Below, in pieces: positions 1-36,611 of a DNA stretch of 64,000 bases (within the stretch, counting starts at the first letter, position 1; each line of letters opens with the position of its first letter). The DNA is taken from positions 62,001-126,000 of the forward strand of contig ONBR01000002.1 in assembly GCA_900316105.1 (NCBI GenBank), written 5' to 3'. This stretch comes from an uncultured Olsenella sp. Lineage in GTDB: Bacteria; Actinomycetota; Coriobacteriia; Coriobacteriales; Atopobiaceae. A program made the translations under genes and the position numbers. Under the pieces are notes generated by a model that had not been told where the DNA came from, made no database searches, and was given only the letters and a program-made list of their open reading frames with translations.

Positions 1-451
1 AGTCGTGTCCGTCAACCAGGTCACGCCCATGAGGGGATTTCTTGAGCGTGATGATGCCGACCTCGGAGAGCTGACGCACGAAGCTCACGGAGACACCCAG
101 AAGCTCTGGCATGCGGGCTATGGGATGGAGTCGAGACGTGATCTCGTCGTCCTCCTGGTCCGGCTCCTCCAGGCTGGCAGCCACCGTGGCAGCAACGGAG
201 TCTGGTCTCTTTCCGTCAAGCTGGTCCTTGATGACCTGCAGGGGCATGAAGCGGTTCTTCTGCAGGTAGAGGATGGTCTCCAGGCGACTGATGTCCGACT
301 GGGAGTAGAGACGGTAGCCCGATGGCGTGCGCGAGGGCGTCAAGAGCCCCTCGTCCTCGAGGTAGCGCACCTTCGAGATGGAAAGGTCCGGGTATTGGGC
401 CTGGAGCTTCTTTACGACCTTGCCGATTGTCAGATAACCTGCGTCTGGCAT
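1..451 (-). CDS. MerR-family regulator, FtsR-like (C-terminus cut by window edge)
   Basis: About 150 codons are visible, running off the left edge. The protein starts MPDAGYLTIGKVVKKL and has a MerR winged-helix: helix-turn-helix at residues 7-25, KVRYLEDEGLL at 27-37 and the wing PSGYRLYSQSDI at 43-54. A second helical segment at about 114-134 (MPELLGVSVSFVRQLSEVGI) resembles the C-terminal part of actinobacterial FtsR. The start lies 3 nt after the stop of the FHA gene, so the two are probably co-transcribed and coupled. In Corynebacterium and Mycobacterium a MerR gene next to the FHA gene garA/odhI is FtsR, which activates ftsZ expression. That role is an inference from family and context here. 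Confidence 0.85.
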   Translation of the reverse strand, partial: MPDAGYLTIGKVVKKLQAQYPDLSISKVRYLEDEGLLTPSRTPSGYRLYSQSDISRLETILYLQKNRFMPLQVIKDQLDGKRPDSVAATVAASLEEPDQEDDEITSRLHPIARMPELLGVSVSFVRQLSEVGIITLKKSPHGRDLVDGHD

Positions 452-454
452 GAG

Positions 455-916
455 CTAAGCCTCAGCCTGGATCCTGGCAGCGCGACGGTTGGTATGGAAG
501 ATCATGCGGAAGGTGCCGATCTGCACGGTAGAGCCATCGCGGAGCACTGCCTTGTTGATGATGGCGCCGTCGACCCAGGTGCCGTTGAGCGAGCCCAGGT
601 CCTCGATGGTTGCGTAGCCTGAGCCAATGCCCGTGAGGTCTATGCAGGCGTGATGGCGAGAGACGGTCATATCATTCAAAAAGACGGAGTTTGAGGGGTC
701 GCGGCCGATGCTGACCAGGTCAGTGGTGAGCTCGAAGACCGAACCGGTCTGGGGCCCCTTGACGATGGATAGGGTCGGGCGAGAGGGCGTATGTCCGCCC
801 AAGAGGTCGGGCGACGTGGAATCTGTGGGAGGCATACGAAAGATCTCAGTGGCTCCCATATTGTTCTTTTTGCTTGGATCCATCAACTCGCTCCTGTCAA
901 AGTCAGCCATTTCCAT
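455..916 (-). CDS. FHA-domain protein, GarA/OdhI-like
   Basis: The 153-residue protein has one forkhead-associated domain at about residues 48-141, with phosphothreonine-binding signatures IGRDPSN (70-76), SRHHA (86-90) and GSLNGT (108-113). The N-terminus contains GATEIFR (21-27), which lines up with the ETTSVFR segment of GarA/OdhI. In that family a Thr there is phosphorylated by Ser/Thr kinases and then bound by the protein's own FHA domain. Only one Thr (T23) is present here, so the switch may be simpler. Known GarA proteins regulate 2-oxoglutarate dehydrogenase and glutamate metabolism; no target can be read from this window. An internal ATG two codons downstream (910) is an equally possible start. 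It sits between the ridA-like gene and the MerR gene. Confidence 0.85.
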   Translation of the reverse strand: MEMADFDRSELMDPSKKNNMGATEIFRMPPTDSTSPDLLGGHTPSRPTLSIVKGPQTGSVFELTTDLVSIGRDPSNSVFLNDMTVSRHHACIDLTGIGSGYATIEDLGSLNGTWVDGAIINKAVLRDGSTVQIGTFRMIFHTNRRAARIQAEA

Positions 917-932
917 TCATATGATAACGCTA

Positions 933-1313
933 CTAGCGGCAGGCGATGCACTCCATCTCGACAAGCGCATCCTTTGGGAGTCGAGAGACCTCTACGATGG
1001 ACAGTGCTGGTGCTGGCAGCGAGAAATGCGAGCAAAAGACCTCTTGGGCAAGCCGTGCGTCACCGAGGTCCTTGAGGTAGAGGGTCGCCTTTGCCACGTC
1101 AGTGAGGGAGCAATCGCATTCCTCCAGGAGGAGGGAGATGATCTGTATGACGCGTTCCATCTGGGGAATGATGCCACCCTCCACCAGCCTGCTGGGGTCC
1201 TGGGGGTCCAGGGCCACCTGTCCTGCGGTAAAGATGAGCCTGCCTGCGGTCGTTCCCATGGAATAGGGACCGGGTGCCTCGGGTACTCCTTGCGCGTTGA
1301 TCGAGTACTTCAA
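933..1313 (-). CDS. RidA/YjgF-family protein lacking the catalytic arginine
   Basis: The 126-residue protein has the full chorismate-mutase-like RidA fold, with GPYSMG (15-20), FTAGQVALDP (28-37) and IVEVSRLPKDALVEME near the end. True RidA proteins are enamine/imine deaminases that use an arginine (E. coli Arg105, in PARS) to bind the substrate carboxylate. Here the motif reads PALS, with Leu104 encoded by CTG, so this belongs with Rid subfamilies that lack that residue, and 2-iminobutanoate deaminase activity should not be assumed. The first in-frame codon is TTG at 1311-1313, preceded by a purine-rich GGGGAGAG. It overlaps the TGA of a possible 9-codon leader ORF. FHA and MerR genes follow in the same direction. 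Confidence 0.85.
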   Translation of the reverse strand: MKYSINAQGVPEAPGPYSMGTTAGRLIFTAGQVALDPQDPSRLVEGGIIPQMERVIQIISLLLEECDCSLTDVAKATLYLKDLGDARLAQEVFCSHFSLPAPALSIVEVSRLPKDALVEMECIACR

Positions 1314-1437
1314 GCCTCTCTCCCCTCTTTGCCTGACATTTCAATCTCCTCGTATAAGAGGATAGGCCCTTGTGACCTTTTCGTGGCCTGGGATGGCAGC
1401 CTGTCCGCATACGGCAAGGGATTCGCAAAACTCCAGA

Positions 1438-1486
1438 TGCCGAAAGGCGCCCGCCCCGGATGTTCGAGGCCAGGCGCCTTCCGGCA
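1438..1486 (-). terminator. possible terminator hairpin after the patB-like gene
   Basis: A 14-bp inverted repeat (1438-1451 with 1473-1486, one mismatch) lies just downstream of the C-S lyase stop codon. On the minus strand it is followed by a weak T-rich stretch (GGAGTTTTG) a few bases on. The 21-base loop is long and the T-tract short, so this is only a plausible terminator. Confidence 0.4.
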
Positions 1487-1512
1487 GCGTTCAAAAGAGC
1501 TATCGATAGGGC

Positions 1513-2727
1513 CTAGAGACCCTTCCTGACCTTCTGAGAGGCGATGGCCAGGCGATCCAGGGCGGCGTTGAGGACCGAGCGGGGGCAGGCAAGGTTGAAG
1601 CGCTCGAAGCCGGAGCCGCCCTTGCCGAACATGTGGCCCTCGTCCAGGTAGAGGTAGGCGTCATCCTTCATGAAGGACTCGAGCTCCTCGTCGGACAGGC
1701 CCCAGGCTCGGAAGTCGACCCAAGCCAGATAGGTGCCTTCCAGGGGATAGACCTCCACCTCGGGCATGCAGCTGGAGAGGAAGCCCTTGAGGAGCTCGTA
1801 GTTGCCCTGGATGTAGGGAATGAGCTCTTCCAGCCACTCGTCGCACTGTGTGTAGGCGGCGGTGGTGGCCACGTAACCAAAGGAGTTGAGCATGCCAAAG
1901 TCACCAAGGAGGGTACGGCCGTCCACGAAGCGCTTGCGCAGGTCGGGGCTGGGGATGTAGATGGCAGACGTCTGGCAGCCGGCAAGGTTAAAGGTCTTGG
2001 AGGGGGCAGTGCAGACAACCATCTTGGCGTACTCGGACGGGTCGGCGACCTTCATGATGGCCGTGTGGCTCTGTCCGGGCATGATCAGGTCGTCGTGGAT
2101 CTCGTCGGCGACGATGATTACGTCGTTGGCAAAGCAGGCGTCCAGGAGGCGGCGGAGCTCCACTGCCGACCAGACGCGGCCTACGGGGTTGTGGGGGCTG
2201 CAGAGGATGAGCATCTTGTTGGCAGGATCTGCGCACTTCTGTGCCAAGTCATCGAAGTCCATCTCGTAGCGGTGACCGCCATCCTCGGTCTCTACGACCT
2301 TGAGGGGGTTATCTACCAGCGTGCGACCGCTCTGCTCGACTGCAAGGCTGAAGGGATAGTAGACGGGCGACTGAATGATTACGCCGTCGCCAGGCTCGGT
2401 GAGGGTGCGGACGGCATTGAAGATGGCGGGGACCACGCCATTGGAGGTAACCAGCATCTGCTTGGTGGGATTCCAGTTGTGGTGGTTCTTCTGCCAGTTC
2501 AGACATGCGTCATAGAACTCCTGAGTGGGCTGGGTGTAGCCCAGGAAGGGGTGCTTGAGGAAGTCCTGGAGGGCATCGATGACTGCGGGAGGGGTATTGA
2601 ACTCCATGTCTGCAACAGAGAGGGGCGCAATCTCGTTGCCCAGCTGGGGATTATGCTCGAGCATGGAACCCCATTTGAAAGACGAGGAACGATCGCCCTC
2701 AATCTTTGCGTCAAAGTCGAACTGCAT
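1513..2727 (-). CDS. patB: MalY/PatB-family PLP-dependent C-S lyase
   Basis: This 404-residue fold-type I aminotransferase-like enzyme has the MalY/PatB pattern. It starts FDAKIEGDRSSSFKWG, and the PLP-binding residues are Asn180 (SPHNPVGR), Asp208 (IIVADEIHDDL) and Lys244 in APSKTFNLAG. The family cleaves the C-S bond of cystathionine or cysteine conjugates to give homocysteine or thiols plus pyruvate and ammonia; some members also act as regulators, as MalY does. It is about the usual length (390-400). The start has a strong AAAGGAG 8 nt upstream. It appears to be a single-gene unit with a structured leader. The exact substrate cannot be told from sequence. Confidence 0.9.
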   Translation of the reverse strand: MQFDFDAKIEGDRSSSFKWGSMLEHNPQLGNEIAPLSVADMEFNTPPAVIDALQDFLKHPFLGYTQPTQEFYDACLNWQKNHHNWNPTKQMLVTSNGVVPAIFNAVRTLTEPGDGVIIQSPVYYPFSLAVEQSGRTLVDNPLKVVETEDGGHRYEMDFDDLAQKCADPANKMLILCSPHNPVGRVWSAVELRRLLDACFANDVIIVADEIHDDLIMPGQSHTAIMKVADPSEYAKMVVCTAPSKTFNLAGCQTSAIYIPSPDLRKRFVDGRTLLGDFGMLNSFGYVATTAAYTQCDEWLEELIPYIQGNYELLKGFLSSCMPEVEVYPLEGTYLAWVDFRAWGLSDEELESFMKDDAYLYLDEGHMFGKGGSGFERFNLACPRSVLNAALDRLAIASQKVRKGL

Positions 2728-2780
2728 ATGAATGTCTCCTTTGAGGTGTGCGGGACAGTGGGATGGACTTCATATAACGA

Positions 2781-2872
2781 AGGGTAGCTTAGCAAAAGCT
2801 GCTACCCATACGAGAGATTTAACGTTAGTTGAAACCTGTTCAACACATGTCGTCCACAGGTAATATCTACCT
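2781..2872 (-). promoter_or_regulatory. leader of the patB-like gene with palindromes and a hairpin
   Basis: Three symmetric elements lie in the 180-bp gap upstream of the C-S lyase. GTTGAAACCTGTTCAAC (2828-2844) is a 17-bp palindrome that overlaps a possible minus-strand -35 (TTGAAC) with TAAATC about 16 nt downstream. AGGTAATATCTACCT (2858-2872) is a second palindrome. A GGGTAGC/GCTACCC hairpin (2782-2788 with 2801-2807) would lie in the 5' UTR. The first two look like repressor sites and the third could act as an attenuator; both roles are inferred. Confidence 0.4.
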
Positions 2873-2910
2873 GCTGAGCGAAAATCATTTGACTTCTGCC
2901 TGACGTTAAA

Positions 2911-3744
2911 CTAGCCAAAGAGTCCGCGGGCTCCGATGAAGTCGTGCTCCAGGCGTATCAGGCCGTCGTGACTGAGCTCCGCTGGGAACATGGACAGCCT
3001 ATCGAGCTCATCAAGCCTGGACAGGCTGGGAAGGACGCTCCCCCGCCATGAGAGGTGGGCTTGGTAGCCCACGGGAGTCACCGTGTTGAAGGAGAGGAGG
3101 CTCCTCCAGAGGACGCGTGCGTATGCTGGAGGCACCAGCAGGAGGTAGTTGGGGTCTCCGGGGAGGTCTGGTCGCATGACGATGGAGGTGATGTGGCCAT
3201 CCAGGTCGAGGTTCTCCACCTGACCGCTCTTGGGCAGGCTCTGACCCTTTGGCACGTAGTCCGAAAGGACCGCCTGAGCAGCGGGACCGGCGAGGGCCAG
3301 GGGTACCAGGCGGTCGGTCATCTCTTTCAGGGCCAGGCCAACGTAGGGCCTGATGCCCCCTTGTTCTACCTTTGCGATGAAGTCGAGCCAGCCGCCTAGG
3401 ACGCTGGCTCGAGGGGAGGCGTCCATAATCAGGAACTCCCCCTCGCCCGTGCGTGCGGCCAGGGGTATAGAGGCTATGGCGCCGTCGCCCAGGAGCGAGA
3501 CCTCGAATGAGCACTCCCCCACCTGAAGCTTTCGTCCACCGAGCGTTGCCCCCATGAAGCTTGGGGTAGGACTGCCGCCTCCCACCAGGAGGAGCATGCC
3601 CGATAGGTCCGTGAGGGCAGCCCCCTCCTTAAAGGGCTTTGACTCGTCCGTAGCCAGATAGCTGGCGGGACCCGTGAGGGCATCTCCCTCGTTGAAGCTA
3701 GCCCCCAGGGCAAGCTCCTCGGTATACAGAACGCTTTGTGACAT
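2911..3744 (-). CDS. GcvT-like folate-binding-fold protein
   Basis: The 277-residue protein has weak but recognisable similarity to aminomethyltransferase (GcvT). GAALTDLSGMLLLVGG near the N-terminus corresponds to the GcvT 'vxDxSxxxxxxvxG' region, and the end carries HDFIGARGL, like the GcvT 'DFIGxxxL' motif. It is shorter than GcvT (about 360) and I cannot identify the residues that bind aminomethyl-lipoyl protein, so a glycine-cleavage role is doubtful. No gcvH or gcvP is nearby. The start at 3744 is chosen because GGAG lies 7 nt upstream; an in-frame ATG at 3792 falls inside the terminator of the preceding gene and is rejected. Product assignment is tentative. Confidence 0.6.
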   Translation of the reverse strand: MSQSVLYTEELALGASFNEGDALTGPASYLATDESKPFKEGAALTDLSGMLLLVGGGSPTPSFMGATLGGRKLQVGECSFEVSLLGDGAIASIPLAARTGEGEFLIMDASPRASVLGGWLDFIAKVEQGGIRPYVGLALKEMTDRLVPLALAGPAAQAVLSDYVPKGQSLPKSGQVENLDLDGHITSIVMRPDLPGDPNYLLLVPPAYARVLWRSLLSFNTVTPVGYQAHLSWRGSVLPSLSRLDELDRLSMFPAELSHDGLIRLEHDFIGARGLFG

Positions 3745-3773
3745 GGTTTTGCTCCAAGCTAATGATGCAAAGA

Positions 3774-3808
3774 GAAAAACGACCTGCCTCAAGGATGGGC
3801 GGGTCGTT
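3774..3808 (-). terminator. rho-independent terminator after the D,D-carboxypeptidase gene
   Basis: On the minus strand AACGACCCGCC pairs with GGCAGGTCGTT around a short loop and runs directly into TTTTTC, which is a classic terminator. It separates the carboxypeptidase gene from the GcvT-like gene, so the latter needs its own promoter or read-through. Confidence 0.8.
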
Positions 3809-3822
3809 GCTGGACGAATCTG

Positions 3823-4989
3823 CTAGGCGAAAAGGGGTAGGGCAAAGATCGAGACGTTAGGCACGTAGGCCAGCTGCTTGCTTGCCCCGTAGGTCTGATA
3901 ACAGACCTTGTGCTTGCCCTGGGACCAGACGGCTGTGCCATAACCTCCACCGAGGTCCACCAGGAGATCCGTGCTGGGGATGCTGACGGAGTACTGGATG
4001 TTCTCGCCAGGATAGACAAGTCCCGTGGAGTCGATGTTGCTATAGATGACGACCTTCGGGCCAAAGCCAAGGGCCCAATTGGCAACGCGAATGGGCAGCT
4101 GCTTCTTGGTAAAGGAGGAGCGCGTGTAGGCGTTGGCGTAGGACCAGTCCATGAGCTTGGCGGTGTCACCGAAACGGCCGGCGTTGGTCTTGCAGCCCAG
4201 GACGGCGGAGTAGAGCCTGACGCCGCTGCGCATGGAGGCACCCAGGAAGGCGCAGCCAGACTCGACCGCTCCGGTCTTTATGCCCACCAGGCCGTCATAG
4301 GTGGCCATGAGCTTGTCGGTGGAGTAGTAGGTCCTTTCCACGCCGCCAATCGTGACGGTGTAGGAGGAGGTACGTACGGCCTGGGCGATGAAGGGATAGT
4401 GCTCCAGGGCATACTTTGCCATCTTGGTCAGATCGGCTGCCGTGGAATAGTGACCCTCTGCCATGAGGCCGTGGGTGTTCATGAAGTGGGTGTTGGTCAT
4501 ACCGATTTCTTGGGCCTTCTCGTTCATCTTCTTGACGAACTCGTCAGTGGAGCCCACGGTGGCGATGGCCGCGTTGTCTGCTGCGTCGTTGGCGGAATAG
4601 ACCAGCATGACCATCATGATCTGGCGCAGGGTGAGGGTATCTCCCTCCTTGATGCCGGCAATCTGGGCATCTGCCTGGTAGGGCAGCTGCTTGAGGGTAT
4701 AGGTCTGGTCCAGATCCTTGCCTTGGTCCAGGGCTACCATGGCGGTCATGACCTTGGTGATGGATGCGGGGTCCATGCGCTGGTCGGGGTTCTTCTCGGC
4801 TAGGACATGACCATCCTGGTCGATGATCTGGTAGGTCTGCGCCTCGTCCACCTGAGGACCTTCGGCCATTGCGGTCTGCGGTAGCAGAAAGAGGGACAGT
4901 GCCAGCGTAAGGCCGAGCGAAAGTATGGAGAGAAAGAACGGCTTGTGCCTGCTGCCCTGTCCAATGGTGAAAGACATGCCTTTTTTCAT
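3823..4989 (-). CDS. D-alanyl-D-alanine carboxypeptidase (DacA/DacF-type PBP)
   Basis: This 388-residue class C low-molecular-weight PBP removes the terminal D-Ala from peptidoglycan stem pentapeptides outside the membrane. A signal peptide is clear: basic start, hydrophobic stretch about 17-38, likely cleavage after AMA (about 42). The serine-enzyme motifs are SITK (76-79, nucleophile Ser76, Lys79), SAN (132-134) and KTG (238-240). The C-terminal part resembles the beta-rich domain of PBP5. The ATG overlaps the stop of the pgsA-like gene in an ATGA, giving translational coupling. The longer in-frame reading upstream is the shadow of that gene. A terminator follows. Confidence 0.93.
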   Translation of the reverse strand: MKKGMSFTIGQGSRHKPFFLSILSLGLTLALSLFLLPQTAMAEGPQVDEAQTYQIIDQDGHVLAEKNPDQRMDPASITKVMTAMVALDQGKDLDQTYTLKQLPYQADAQIAGIKEGDTLTLRQIMMVMLVYSANDAADNAAIATVGSTDEFVKKMNEKAQEIGMTNTHFMNTHGLMAEGHYSTAADLTKMAKYALEHYPFIAQAVRTSSYTVTIGGVERTYYSTDKLMATYDGLVGIKTGAVESGCAFLGASMRSGVRLYSAVLGCKTNAGRFGDTAKLMDWSYANAYTRSSFTKKQLPIRVANWALGFGPKVVIYSNIDSTGLVYPGENIQYSVSIPSTDLLVDLGGGYGTAVWSQGKHKVCYQTYGASKQLAYVPNVSIFALPLFA

Positions 4990-17165: not shown

Positions 17166-17223
17166 TGTCGCAGGGGTAGCCCTGCGACACATTTTATGTC
17201 GAAAGGGGCTACCCCCTGCGACG
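17166..17223. repeat. REP-like pair of palindromes between coaBC and the Uup-like gene
   Basis: Two palindromes sit side by side: TGTCGCAGGGG-TAG-CCCTGCGACA (17166-17189) and TGTCGAAAGGGG-CTA-CCCCCTGCGACGCA (17197-17223). The second supplies the last codons (MRRRG) and the TAG stop of coaBC, read on the minus strand. The core is shared with the element at 11470. Confidence 0.75.
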
Positions 17224-18528
17224 CATACGGGGGAGGTGGTCCAGGATCGTCGCGGCCACCTGGGGCAGAGGCATGGTCTCGAACTGCTCCACGCCCTCGG
17301 ACGTGACCAGGGCGATTCTGCTTGTGTCCGCGCCAAAGGTGGAGTCCTTGCGGGAGACGTCGTTGGCAACGATCATGTCGGCATGCTTGAGGACCAGCTT
17401 GGACTGGGCGTTGGCGATAAGGTCGTTGGTCTCGGCGGCAAAGCCTACGACGGTACGGGCACCCTTGGTGGAACCCAGCTCGGCCAGGATGTCGGTGGTC
17501 TCCACGAGCTCTATCGTGTCCAGGTGCTCGCGGTTCTTCTTGAGCTTGTGGTCGGCAGGATGGGCGGGGGTGTAGTCGGCCACGGCGGCCGAGCAGATGG
17601 CGCAGTCTGCATCCGCGAATGCGGCGACGGTGGCGTCGTGCATCTGGGCGGCGGAAACCACGTCCACGCGGAGGACGCCAGCGGGCGTGCGTAAGGCTGT
17701 GGGGCCAGAGACCAGGGTGACCTTGGCGCCGCGACGGGCAGCCTCGGCGGCGATGGTGTAGCCCATCTTTCCCGTGGAGGCGTTTGCGATGTAGCGGACG
17801 GGGTCGATGGCCTCATGGGTGGGGCCGGCGGTGATCACGATGCGACGGCCGGCGAGGTCATGGACCGGGGCAGTCTGCGTGGGGATACCGGCGCATGAGG
17901 GCGTCACGGTCGCAGTCGGGTCGGCAGGGGGCTCTGTCCCTATTGTCTCTGAGACAAAGTGCTCCGTCCCCTTTGTCTCATTGAGGAGGTGGAGGGCGGA
18001 GCTGACGATGTCATCCACGGTTGCGAGCTTGCCCTCCCCCACATCACCACAGGCTAGAAGGCCGCTTGTGGGGTCCACGATGTAAACGCCGCGGCTCCTC
18101 AAGGTGGCTAGGTTTGCCTGTGTTGCGGGGTTCTGCCACATGTGGACGTTCATGGCGGGAGCCAGAACGACGGGGCTGTGCATGGCCAAGAGGGTCGTGG
18201 ACAGGGCGTCGTCTGCTATGCCGTGTGCCATCTTTGCCATGACGTTTGCGGTGGCGGGAACGACCAGGCAGAGGTCTGCCCTATCGGCCAGGTCGATGTG
18301 GGGAATGGGATCTCCCGGCATGTCATAGAGGCTGGTCACCACGGGATGGCCGGACAGGGCCTCGAAGGTGGGCGTACCCACAAAGCGGGTGGCGTCCTCG
18401 CTCATGACTACCCAGACGTCGCAGTTGGCCTTCTGGAGCCCGCGCAGGACCTCGCAGGCCTTGTAGACCGCGATTCCGCCCGTGACGGCAAGGACGACGG
18501 TGTAGCTAGGATTCTGGGGAGCGCTCAT
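17209..18528 (-). CDS. coaBC: bifunctional phosphopantothenoylcysteine synthetase/decarboxylase CoaBC
   Basis: The 439-residue fusion makes phosphopantetheine from phosphopantothenate and cysteine for coenzyme A. CoaC (about 8-180) is an FMN decarboxylase with VTGGIAVYKA, active-site His77 (PHIDLA), PATANV, PAMN (124-127) and the lid Cys160. CoaB (about 228-435) starts RRIVITAGPTHEAIDPVRYI and contains NASTGKMG and DHKLKK. The linker (about 183-226) is unusually long, and its first 18 residues (ETKGTEHFVSETIGTEPP) are encoded by a REP-like palindrome. GGAGG lies 8 nt before ATG 18528, inside the end of the zinc-ribbon gene. The C-terminal MRRRG and stop come from a second REP-like element. 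Confidence 0.95.
   Translation of the reverse strand: MSAPQNPSYTVVLAVTGGIAVYKACEVLRGLQKANCDVWVVMSEDATRFVGTPTFEALSGHPVVTSLYDMPGDPIPHIDLADRADLCLVVPATANVMAKMAHGIADDALSTTLLAMHSPVVLAPAMNVHMWQNPATQANLATLRSRGVYIVDPTSGLLACGDVGEGKLATVDDIVSSALHLLNETKGTEHFVSETIGTEPPADPTATVTPSCAGIPTQTAPVHDLAGRRIVITAGPTHEAIDPVRYIANASTGKMGYTIAAEAARRGAKVTLVSGPTALRTPAGVLRVDVVSAAQMHDATVAAFADADCAICSAAVADYTPAHPADHKLKKNREHLDTIELVETTDILAELGSTKGARTVVGFAAETNDLIANAQSKLVLKHADMIVANDVSRKDSTFGADTSRIALVTSEGVEQFETMPLPQVAATILDHLPRMRRRG
17927..17979. repeat. REP-like palindrome inside coaBC
   Basis: GAGACAAAG (17951-17959) pairs perfectly with CTTTGTCTC (17971-17979) around TGCTCCGTCCC, with a related half-copy (GGGGGCTCTGTCCCTATTGTCTCT, about 17927-17950) alongside. 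The layout is the same as the intergenic element at 35775 (TGAGCCAAA...TTTGGCTCA with GGGACAGG in the loop). It is in frame and open in coaBC, encoding linker residues. Confidence 0.7.
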
Positions 18529-35774: not shown

Positions 35775-35807
35775 TGAGCCAAAAATGGCCTGTCCCTCTT
35801 TGGCTCA
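35775..35807. repeat. REP-like palindrome over the stop codon of the YgjP-like gene
   Basis: TGAGCCAAA (35775-35783) pairs with TTTGGCTCA (35799-35807) around a loop containing GGGACAGG. The TGA stop of the YgjP-like gene (35805-35807) is the first triplet of the element on the minus strand. Loop and arms match the element inside coaBC. Confidence 0.75.
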
Positions 35808-36611
35808 CTGGCGGCGGAAGGGAGAGTCCTTATCGACGAGGAGCCGCCGGGCATCCTCCCAGTCGGGGCAGCCCCGGTGGATGGTAGCGTCGATGGCGAT
35901 CTGCCGATCCTCCCCCTCCAGGTCGGGCGCGACCAGGTAGGGTGCCATCTCGCGGATGCAGGCGTAGGCCAGACAGTGGGGTGGGAAGGGAATCAGGTCC
36001 CGCGAGAACCAGACGGTATGGATCTTCTGGTCGTAGCGGACCAGCCCATGGCGGGTCTCGGTGGCTCGGAAGGTGACCTTGCTGAGGTCCACCTGGGCCT
36101 GGGCCCTCTGCATGGCCTGCATGAAGAGGGAGGACCCGTTGCGGACCAGTACCCCGTCGGCCCAGGCCATGAAGCAGTTCCTCCGCTGGCCGTACTCTCC
36201 CACCTGCATGACGTAGAGCTCGATCAGGCTGACCTCGGTAATAACACGGACGTTGGTGGTGGCCCGGCCCCGGGCGGCGTGCTTCATCTGGCCCTTGGCC
36301 AGGGGATAGACCCTCAGCATGAAGGGACGGCCAAAGACGTAGGCGAGGTCCCCGGTCTGGTAGCGGCAGGCCAGGGAGGAGGTTTTGCGGTAGCGCTTCT
36401 GGACATAGCCCATGACCTGGCGGGCCTGGGGAAGCCAGGTGTTGACGAAGCCAATGATCGCCTCGTTGGGAAGACGGGGGTCCACGTAGAGAGAGGGCGC
36501 CCCCGTGGGCGGGGCAAAGGCAAAGAAGGTCTCGGGTACAGGCGAGGGCAGGACGGGACAGGTGATGCCCTCGAAGCTGATGGATGCGATGCGGCGGTTC
36601 TCTTCGGGCAT
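35805..36611 (-). CDS. YgjP/DUF45-like protein with lost zinc motif
   Basis: The 268-residue protein resembles YgjP-like metallohydrolases: beta-rich N-terminus, VRYDQKIHTVWFSRDLIPFPPHCL before the motif region, and DWEDARRLL at the end (as in 'PdWkxxrxxL'). Where the family has HExxH, this protein reads YACIREMAPYL, so both zinc histidines are missing and the downstream His is not evident. It is therefore likely to be a non-catalytic relative, or I have the wrong family. AGGAG lies 5 nt before the ATG. It is not clearly tied to its neighbours. Confidence 0.7.
   Translation of the reverse strand: MPEENRRIASISFEGITCPVLPSPVPETFFAFAPPTGAPSLYVDPRLPNEAIIGFVNTWLPQARQVMGYVQKRYRKTSSLACRYQTGDLAYVFGRPFMLRVYPLAKGQMKHAARGRATTNVRVITEVSLIELYVMQVGEYGQRRNCFMAWADGVLVRNGSSLFMQAMQRAQAQVDLSKVTFRATETRHGLVRYDQKIHTVWFSRDLIPFPPHCLAYACIREMAPYLVAPDLEGEDRQIAIDATIHRGCPDWEDARRLLVDKDSPFRRQ

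Follow-up and report, generated by a model that had tools for sequence, protein, structure and literature searches.

A high-copy REP-like hairpin reads in frame through the CoaBC linker of an uncultured Olsenella

Introduction

How does a short palindromic repeat come to lie in frame between the two domains of a conserved enzyme, and what has it become there? The coaBC gene of an uncultured Olsenella species raises both questions. It lies in a 64,000-nucleotide stretch of contig C21 – the window – from a draft genome of 2.14 Mb (42 contigs, 91.6% complete).

Repeats within genes have well-described precedents. Intragenic GTAG/CGTC REPs sit mostly just downstream of genes, where they often supply the stop codon, and some lie wholly within conserved genes, coding for segments of 20-30 residues, and as many as 82, that are proposed there to occupy flexible loops or linkers (Di Nocera et al. 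2013, PMC3733652). In the portions of PMC2229807 and PMC10969869 drawn on here, the palindromic elements of Rickettsia (RPEs; Ogata et al. 2000) are described as 105-150 bp long and as in-frame insertions in a large number of conserved protein genes unrelated to one another, the frame staying open through the element and the tested inserts being seemingly neutral or slightly harmful. Intragenic REPs in linkers are therefore already known (PMC3733652 and the Rickettsia RPEs). In REP-RAYT and REPIN systems, each repeat family is accompanied by one single-copy Y1_Tnp gene, with a REP on either side in inverted orientation (Nunvar et al. 2010, PMC2817692; PMC3116915). Neither the main text of PMC3733652 nor a keyword search of the open-access literature mentions such elements in Coriobacteria or Atopobiaceae.

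The repeat in the CoaBC linker

The coaBC product scores 416 bits against TIGR00521 coaBC_dfp, above the cut-off (NCBIfam search), and a Pfam search places its Flavoprotein domain at residues 10-180 and its DFP domain at residues 225-407. Positions 17927-17985 (plus strand GGGGGCTCTGTCCCTATTGTCTCTGAGACAAAGTGCTCCGTCCCCTTTGTCTCATTGAG) translate from the minus strand, in the coaBC frame, to LNETKGTEHFVSETIGTEP(P). An initial annotation of the window had taken this segment for a REP-like element encoding the domain linker, and the in-frame translation, together with 128 matches in the genome, confirms that it is a copy of a repeat family (here F1) coding for part of the CoaC-CoaB linker (Table 1). 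Its placement between two folded domains, with the frame kept, is equally borne out: it falls in the gap that separates the Pfam domains between residues 180 and 225, and residues 188-219 are predicted to be disordered in an AlphaFold model (pLDDT < 50), most of both domains having pLDDT > 90. In another CoaBC (PDB 6tgv), residues 179 to 185 are directly joined and the domains lie within about five residues of each other; here, the linker runs to nearly 40 residues.

As single-stranded DNA, the segment folds more stably than 200 of 200 shuffled versions (z -3.55). Only one of the three frames on its coding strand is open, namely the one reading ETKGTEHFVS. The annotation had also held that coaBC ends within another element, and its TAG stop and last codons do lie inside a palindrome of a different family, F3.

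Table 1. Positions of coaBC, its repeat-derived parts and the other elements and genes discussed (positions without a locus refer to the window; a dot marks features given without strand)
Feature	Position	Strand	Details
coaBC, phosphopantothenoylcysteine decarboxylase / phosphopantothenate-cysteine ligase	17209..18528	-	ORF, 439 aa (MSAPQNP...RMRRRG*); Pfam, TIGR00521
F1 REP-like element in coaBC	17927..17985	-	in frame, about 1.5 units; residues 182-201, including ETKGTEHFVSETIGTEPP (184-201)
Main hairpin of the coaBC F1 copy	17950..17980	.	TGAGACAAAG-TGCTCCGTCCC-CTTTGTCTCA; pattern search, DNA fold
Half-unit tail of the coaBC F1 element, conserved	17931..17949	.	GCTCTGTCCCTATTGTCTC; bases adjoining the unit read on as WGAGACAAWGGGGAC in most copies
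Remaining expanded linker, residues 202-223 (ADPTATVTPSCAGIPTQTAPVH)	17860..17925	-	CoaBC alignment
F3 palindrome at the coaBC end (GTCGCAGGGGTAGCCC...)	17167..17226	.	holds the coaBC TAG stop and last codons (about RMRRRG); fold z -5.8
F4 palindrome, TGAGCCA..TGGCTCA (TGAGCCAAAAATGGCCTGTCCCTCTTTGGCTCA)	35775..35810	.	intergenic; 14 matches in genome (partial survey)
ECF S-component and ATPase, one 880-aa open frame	L140 (C20:39800-46500), 2247-4889	-	F1 repeat peptide in join
cbiD with complete 67-bp F2 doublet in frame	L205 (C8:1-2200), 11-1270	-	strand folds as near-perfect single hairpin, -33.9 kcal/mol
birA with two separate single F2 units	L231 (C17:59900-62100), 961-1836	+	CDKSARRYCHI and CDKSARHFCHI at two biotin ligase loops

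Among 80 aligned CoaBC proteins, the compared linker region is 74 aa long here; most close relatives have 36-46 aa, three of the same genus (G002, G003 and G004) have 41 aa and most others 35-46 aa. The ETKGTEHFVSETIGTEPP segment occurs in none of the 80, and the same linker in a species lacking the repeat family – an observation that would have spoken against an insertion – was sought in these proteins and in 139 genomes and not found. The F1 repeat accounts for about 18 of the roughly 33 extra linker residues; residues 202-223 (the ADPTATVTPSCAGIPTQTAPVH region), with about 15 further extra residues, match none of the repeat families seen, and for these drift of the linker is a possible origin.

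Could the whole segment be the product of ordinary linker drift, that is, of low-complexity or codon-level expansion that resembles the repeat by chance or convergence? CoaBC linker lengths do vary widely, some more distant uncultured relatives having 79-86 aa of unrelated sequence in this region without any repeat, which indicates that the linker tolerates changes in length. Drift is nonetheless extremely improbable, given that the DNA matches other F1 copies at 94-96% identity across 48-54 bases (E as low as 3e-18), that the hairpin is kept and that the same peptide recurs in several other genes of the genome; for the repeat-coded part of the linker, the DNA identity to F1 excludes it. What very probably happened instead is that a copy of a species-specific, RAYT-linked F1 hairpin entered the junction of the two domains and has survived there because the site is tolerant.

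The F1 family and other palindromes

The 128 blastn matches of the coaBC segment in its own genome, many of them 88-96% identical across 48-54 bases and the second best with E = 3e-18 over 54 bases, mean that the palindrome is not due to chance. A pattern search for the F1 core, GGGACGGAGCNNTTTGTCTC, finds 87 occurrences in this genome and none in 139 other Atopobiaceae genomes, four of the same genus included; the family assignment follows the named hits of the CoaBC search, Olsenella and Thermophilibacter among them. F1 is thus a family of high copy number that is confined, across the genomes searched, to this species.

Its form, derived from 93 strict 29-bp units in the fetched loci, comprises a hairpin of 29 bp (GAGACAnnnGGGACGGAGCnnTTTGTCTC) and, directly after it, half a unit more (WGAGACAAWGGGGAC(R)GAGC), about 49 bp together. 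A search for the perfect palindrome (TGAGACAAA..TTTGTCTCA) returns only two sites, as most units are imperfect. Units often face one another or form 30-bp tandem arrays, and since 30 is a multiple of three, growth of such an array within a gene would preserve the frame. Examples of these arrays lie at C18:57606-57714, C18:29485-29627 and C38:27297-27405.

With a 29-bp unit, a hairpin, 93 strict copies and 128 blastn matches, F1 has the character of a REP, an imperfect palindrome of 20-40 bp present in high copy number. The end tags GTAG, GTGG and CGTC, however, occur seldom or not at all in the adjoining 8 bases of the units of F1 and of a second family, F2, and we therefore describe both as REP-like, outside the GTAG or CGTC superfamily. 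F2 (GTGACA..TGTCAC) usually occurs as a 67-bp doublet of inverted units, and F3 (GTCGCAGGGGTAGCCC..) has 43 mostly weak matches in the genome. The survey took in the stretches around repeat matches, with F3 and F4 covered in part.

The F4 element at 35775 had been likened in the initial annotation to the coaBC palindrome. The two do share the same build; membership of one family is rejected, as their blastn match sets are separate, apart from one mixed-looking copy at C37:47702. The TGA of this F4 element is the stop codon of a minus-strand gene at 35805-36611. Further along the window, at about 39700-63500, lie one or more very long open frames (one spanning 5825 codons between stops), rich in degenerate direct repeats, that probably encode a giant repetitive surface protein.

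Where the copies sit

Set against genes whose ends were called with a home-made coding-score caller, 113 repeat clusters in the fetched loci divide into 88 intergenic, 18 at a gene edge and 7 within genes. A gene 3' end lies no more than 20 bp away in 50 of 103 copies, a gene 5' end in 6 of 94. The copies are thus mostly extragenic with a preference for gene 3' ends, as is characteristic of REPs. About 84% of the window is coding, and set beside this figure, the small number of intragenic copies suggests that damaging insertions have been lost, that genes are avoided at the insertion step, or both. None of the clusters in the fetched loci clearly breaks a gene.

In each of the four families, elements frequently border a stop codon or provide it (23 gene ends in the fetched loci), the stop being the TGA of TGAGCCA, TGAGACA or TGTGACA, or a TAG in F3.

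Transposase genes

The genome holds exactly two Y1_Tnp genes, each beside one of the two REP-like families. That on contig C28 lies between inverted F1 copies (C28:31037-31105 and C28:32198); that on C24 has an F2 copy directly at each end (C24:2747-2813 and 3672-3738). Each is accordingly flanked by two inverted copies of a REP-like element, as a RAYT gene would be. The products score 51 and 47 bits against PF01797, above the cut-off, and carry an HUH motif (HVH) with YIHLNP or YIHMNP; the C28 transposase has one HUH motif and YIHLNP. Against the NCBIfam RAYT model NF047646 they reach 51.1 and 54.9 bits, below its equivalog cut-off of 80, for which reason we call both RAYT-like and divergent.

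The F2 copies overlap the start and the stop codon of the C24 transposase gene (L143, C24:1-6000, 2747-3738), so that the ends of this gene are set by its own repeat.

The arrangement is that described for RAYTs (PMC2817692), and we infer from it that these RAYT-like transposases move, or once moved, the repeats.

Other genes with in-frame copies

The search for further in-frame elements that the initial annotation had recommended, made in the fetched loci around repeat matches, yielded four more conserved genes: those for an M16C/PreP-like peptidase, an ECF transporter, CbiD and BirA. In all five genes, coaBC included, the repeat is in frame and absent from orthologues. In the peptidase, F1 units lie in the linker that connects the two halves, the compared region being 105 aa versus 71-80 aa in nearly all relatives. 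The F2 doublet in cbiD codes for a loop of 48 aa versus 33-36 in the seven closest relatives, and the two F2 units of BirA fall at lower-confidence loop positions of the predicted model. Two apparent N-terminal cases, a GATase_4 gene in L117 and a gene in L111, were not counted, their starts more likely lying downstream of the element.

The ECF transporter case goes further. About 112 residues, dominated by the F1 peptide, join the S-component to the double ATPase, and a stop codon follows the S-component in 15 of the 17 relatives in which the pair is adjacent, among them G001, G002 and G004 of the same genus. A first impression from open-frame lengths, that the fusion was ancestral in the relatives, was rejected once the stop codons were read. 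Because most relatives, those of the same genus included, have this stop, the simpler reading of the sequences is that the subunits would have been fused in this lineage through the F1 array. It is doubtful, if still conceivable, that S-component and ATPase were fused beforehand and that F1 only lengthened an existing linker: two of the 17 relatives (L183 and L194) are naturally fused without repeats and in 9 of the 15 split pairs the two genes share a frame, but the same-genus pairs G001, G002 and G004 split right past the conserved end of the S-component, exactly where the F1 array begins.

Decay or mis-assembly of some of the affected genes, which would make the inserts damage rather than tolerated additions, is very unlikely. 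The data do come from a single draft assembly and the coding score is low across the inserts; all five frames, however, run uninterrupted from end to end and keep conserved domains to either side of the insert, those of coaBC and birA, which are normally essential, included, and no clearly gene-breaking insert was found.

Proposed origin and fate of the insertions

The proposed route starts with a RAYT-like transposase, which would mobilise F1 as single-stranded hairpins. Most copies would settle in the short spaces just past stop codons, and those that break genes would be lost. Survival within a gene would then amount to a filter, passed by copies that combine a stop-free frame, a frame-keeping length and a tolerant site such as an interdomain linker, a surface loop or the junction of two co-transcribed subunits.

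Have such copies been put to use? Every F1 insert found within a gene reads in the E-T frame, which might suggest constraint on a preferred peptide; this was rejected, since use of the E-T frame follows from stops in the other frames. A fuller version of the idea holds that the intragenic elements are under selection – the linkers or mRNA hairpins tuning folding, domain spacing, translation pausing or subunit fusion – and that the repeat has been domesticated. It can point to five conserved genes affected in one genome, to the several units in the M16C and ECF linkers and to the two ECF subunits that now form one open frame. We consider it unlikely, for the inserts sit where their cost is least, their residues vary among copies and the choice of frame is explained by which frames are stop-free; these comparisons showed no evidence for selection on the repeat peptide. 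Most likely, the F1 peptide in CoaBC is only a neutral, polar spacer, predicted to be disordered.

The F1 and F2 families resemble the intragenic GTAG/CGTC REPs (PMC3733652) in being short palindromes found at gene 3' sites, in supplying stop codons and in contributing linker or loop inserts; they differ in lacking a GTAG or CGTC end tag, and the ECF array codes for more than 100 residues and joins two genes. With REP-RAYT and REPIN systems they share a lone Y1_Tnp gene for each repeat family, inverted flanks, high copy number, units paired in inverted orientation (as in the F2 67-mer) and restriction to one species; unlike these, they have no GTAG or GTGG head, their transposases score below the NCBIfam RAYT cut-off and the host stands outside the Gammaproteobacteria of the original description. 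To RPEs, as portrayed in the portions of the sources drawn on here, they are alike in being palindromes in frame within conserved protein genes with the frame open through the element. The unit here is about 29-67 bp rather than 105-150 bp and adjoins Y1_Tnp genes, no linked transposase being mentioned in those portions.

Implications

The novelty relative to the known systems lies in the host group, in two families that lack an end tag and each adjoin a transposase gene, and in the probable fusion of two transporter genes. More tentatively, resident RAYT-linked hairpins may repeatedly give rise to new interdomain linkers and gene fusions in one gut-type actinobacterial lineage, with single units lengthening loops (BirA, CbiD), arrays lengthening linkers (CoaBC, the M16C peptidase) and one array having removed the stop between two ECF subunits to leave a linker of more than 100 residues. 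Several independent inserts, from two repeat families and in five conserved genes of one genome, have relatives that show the form without the repeat peptide. They offer a clean, countable case of short mobile DNA turning into protein sequence, beyond the groups in which intragenic palindromes were described, and whether such a peptide is a neutral passenger or a useful linker is a question directly testable on familiar enzymes such as CoaBC and BirA.
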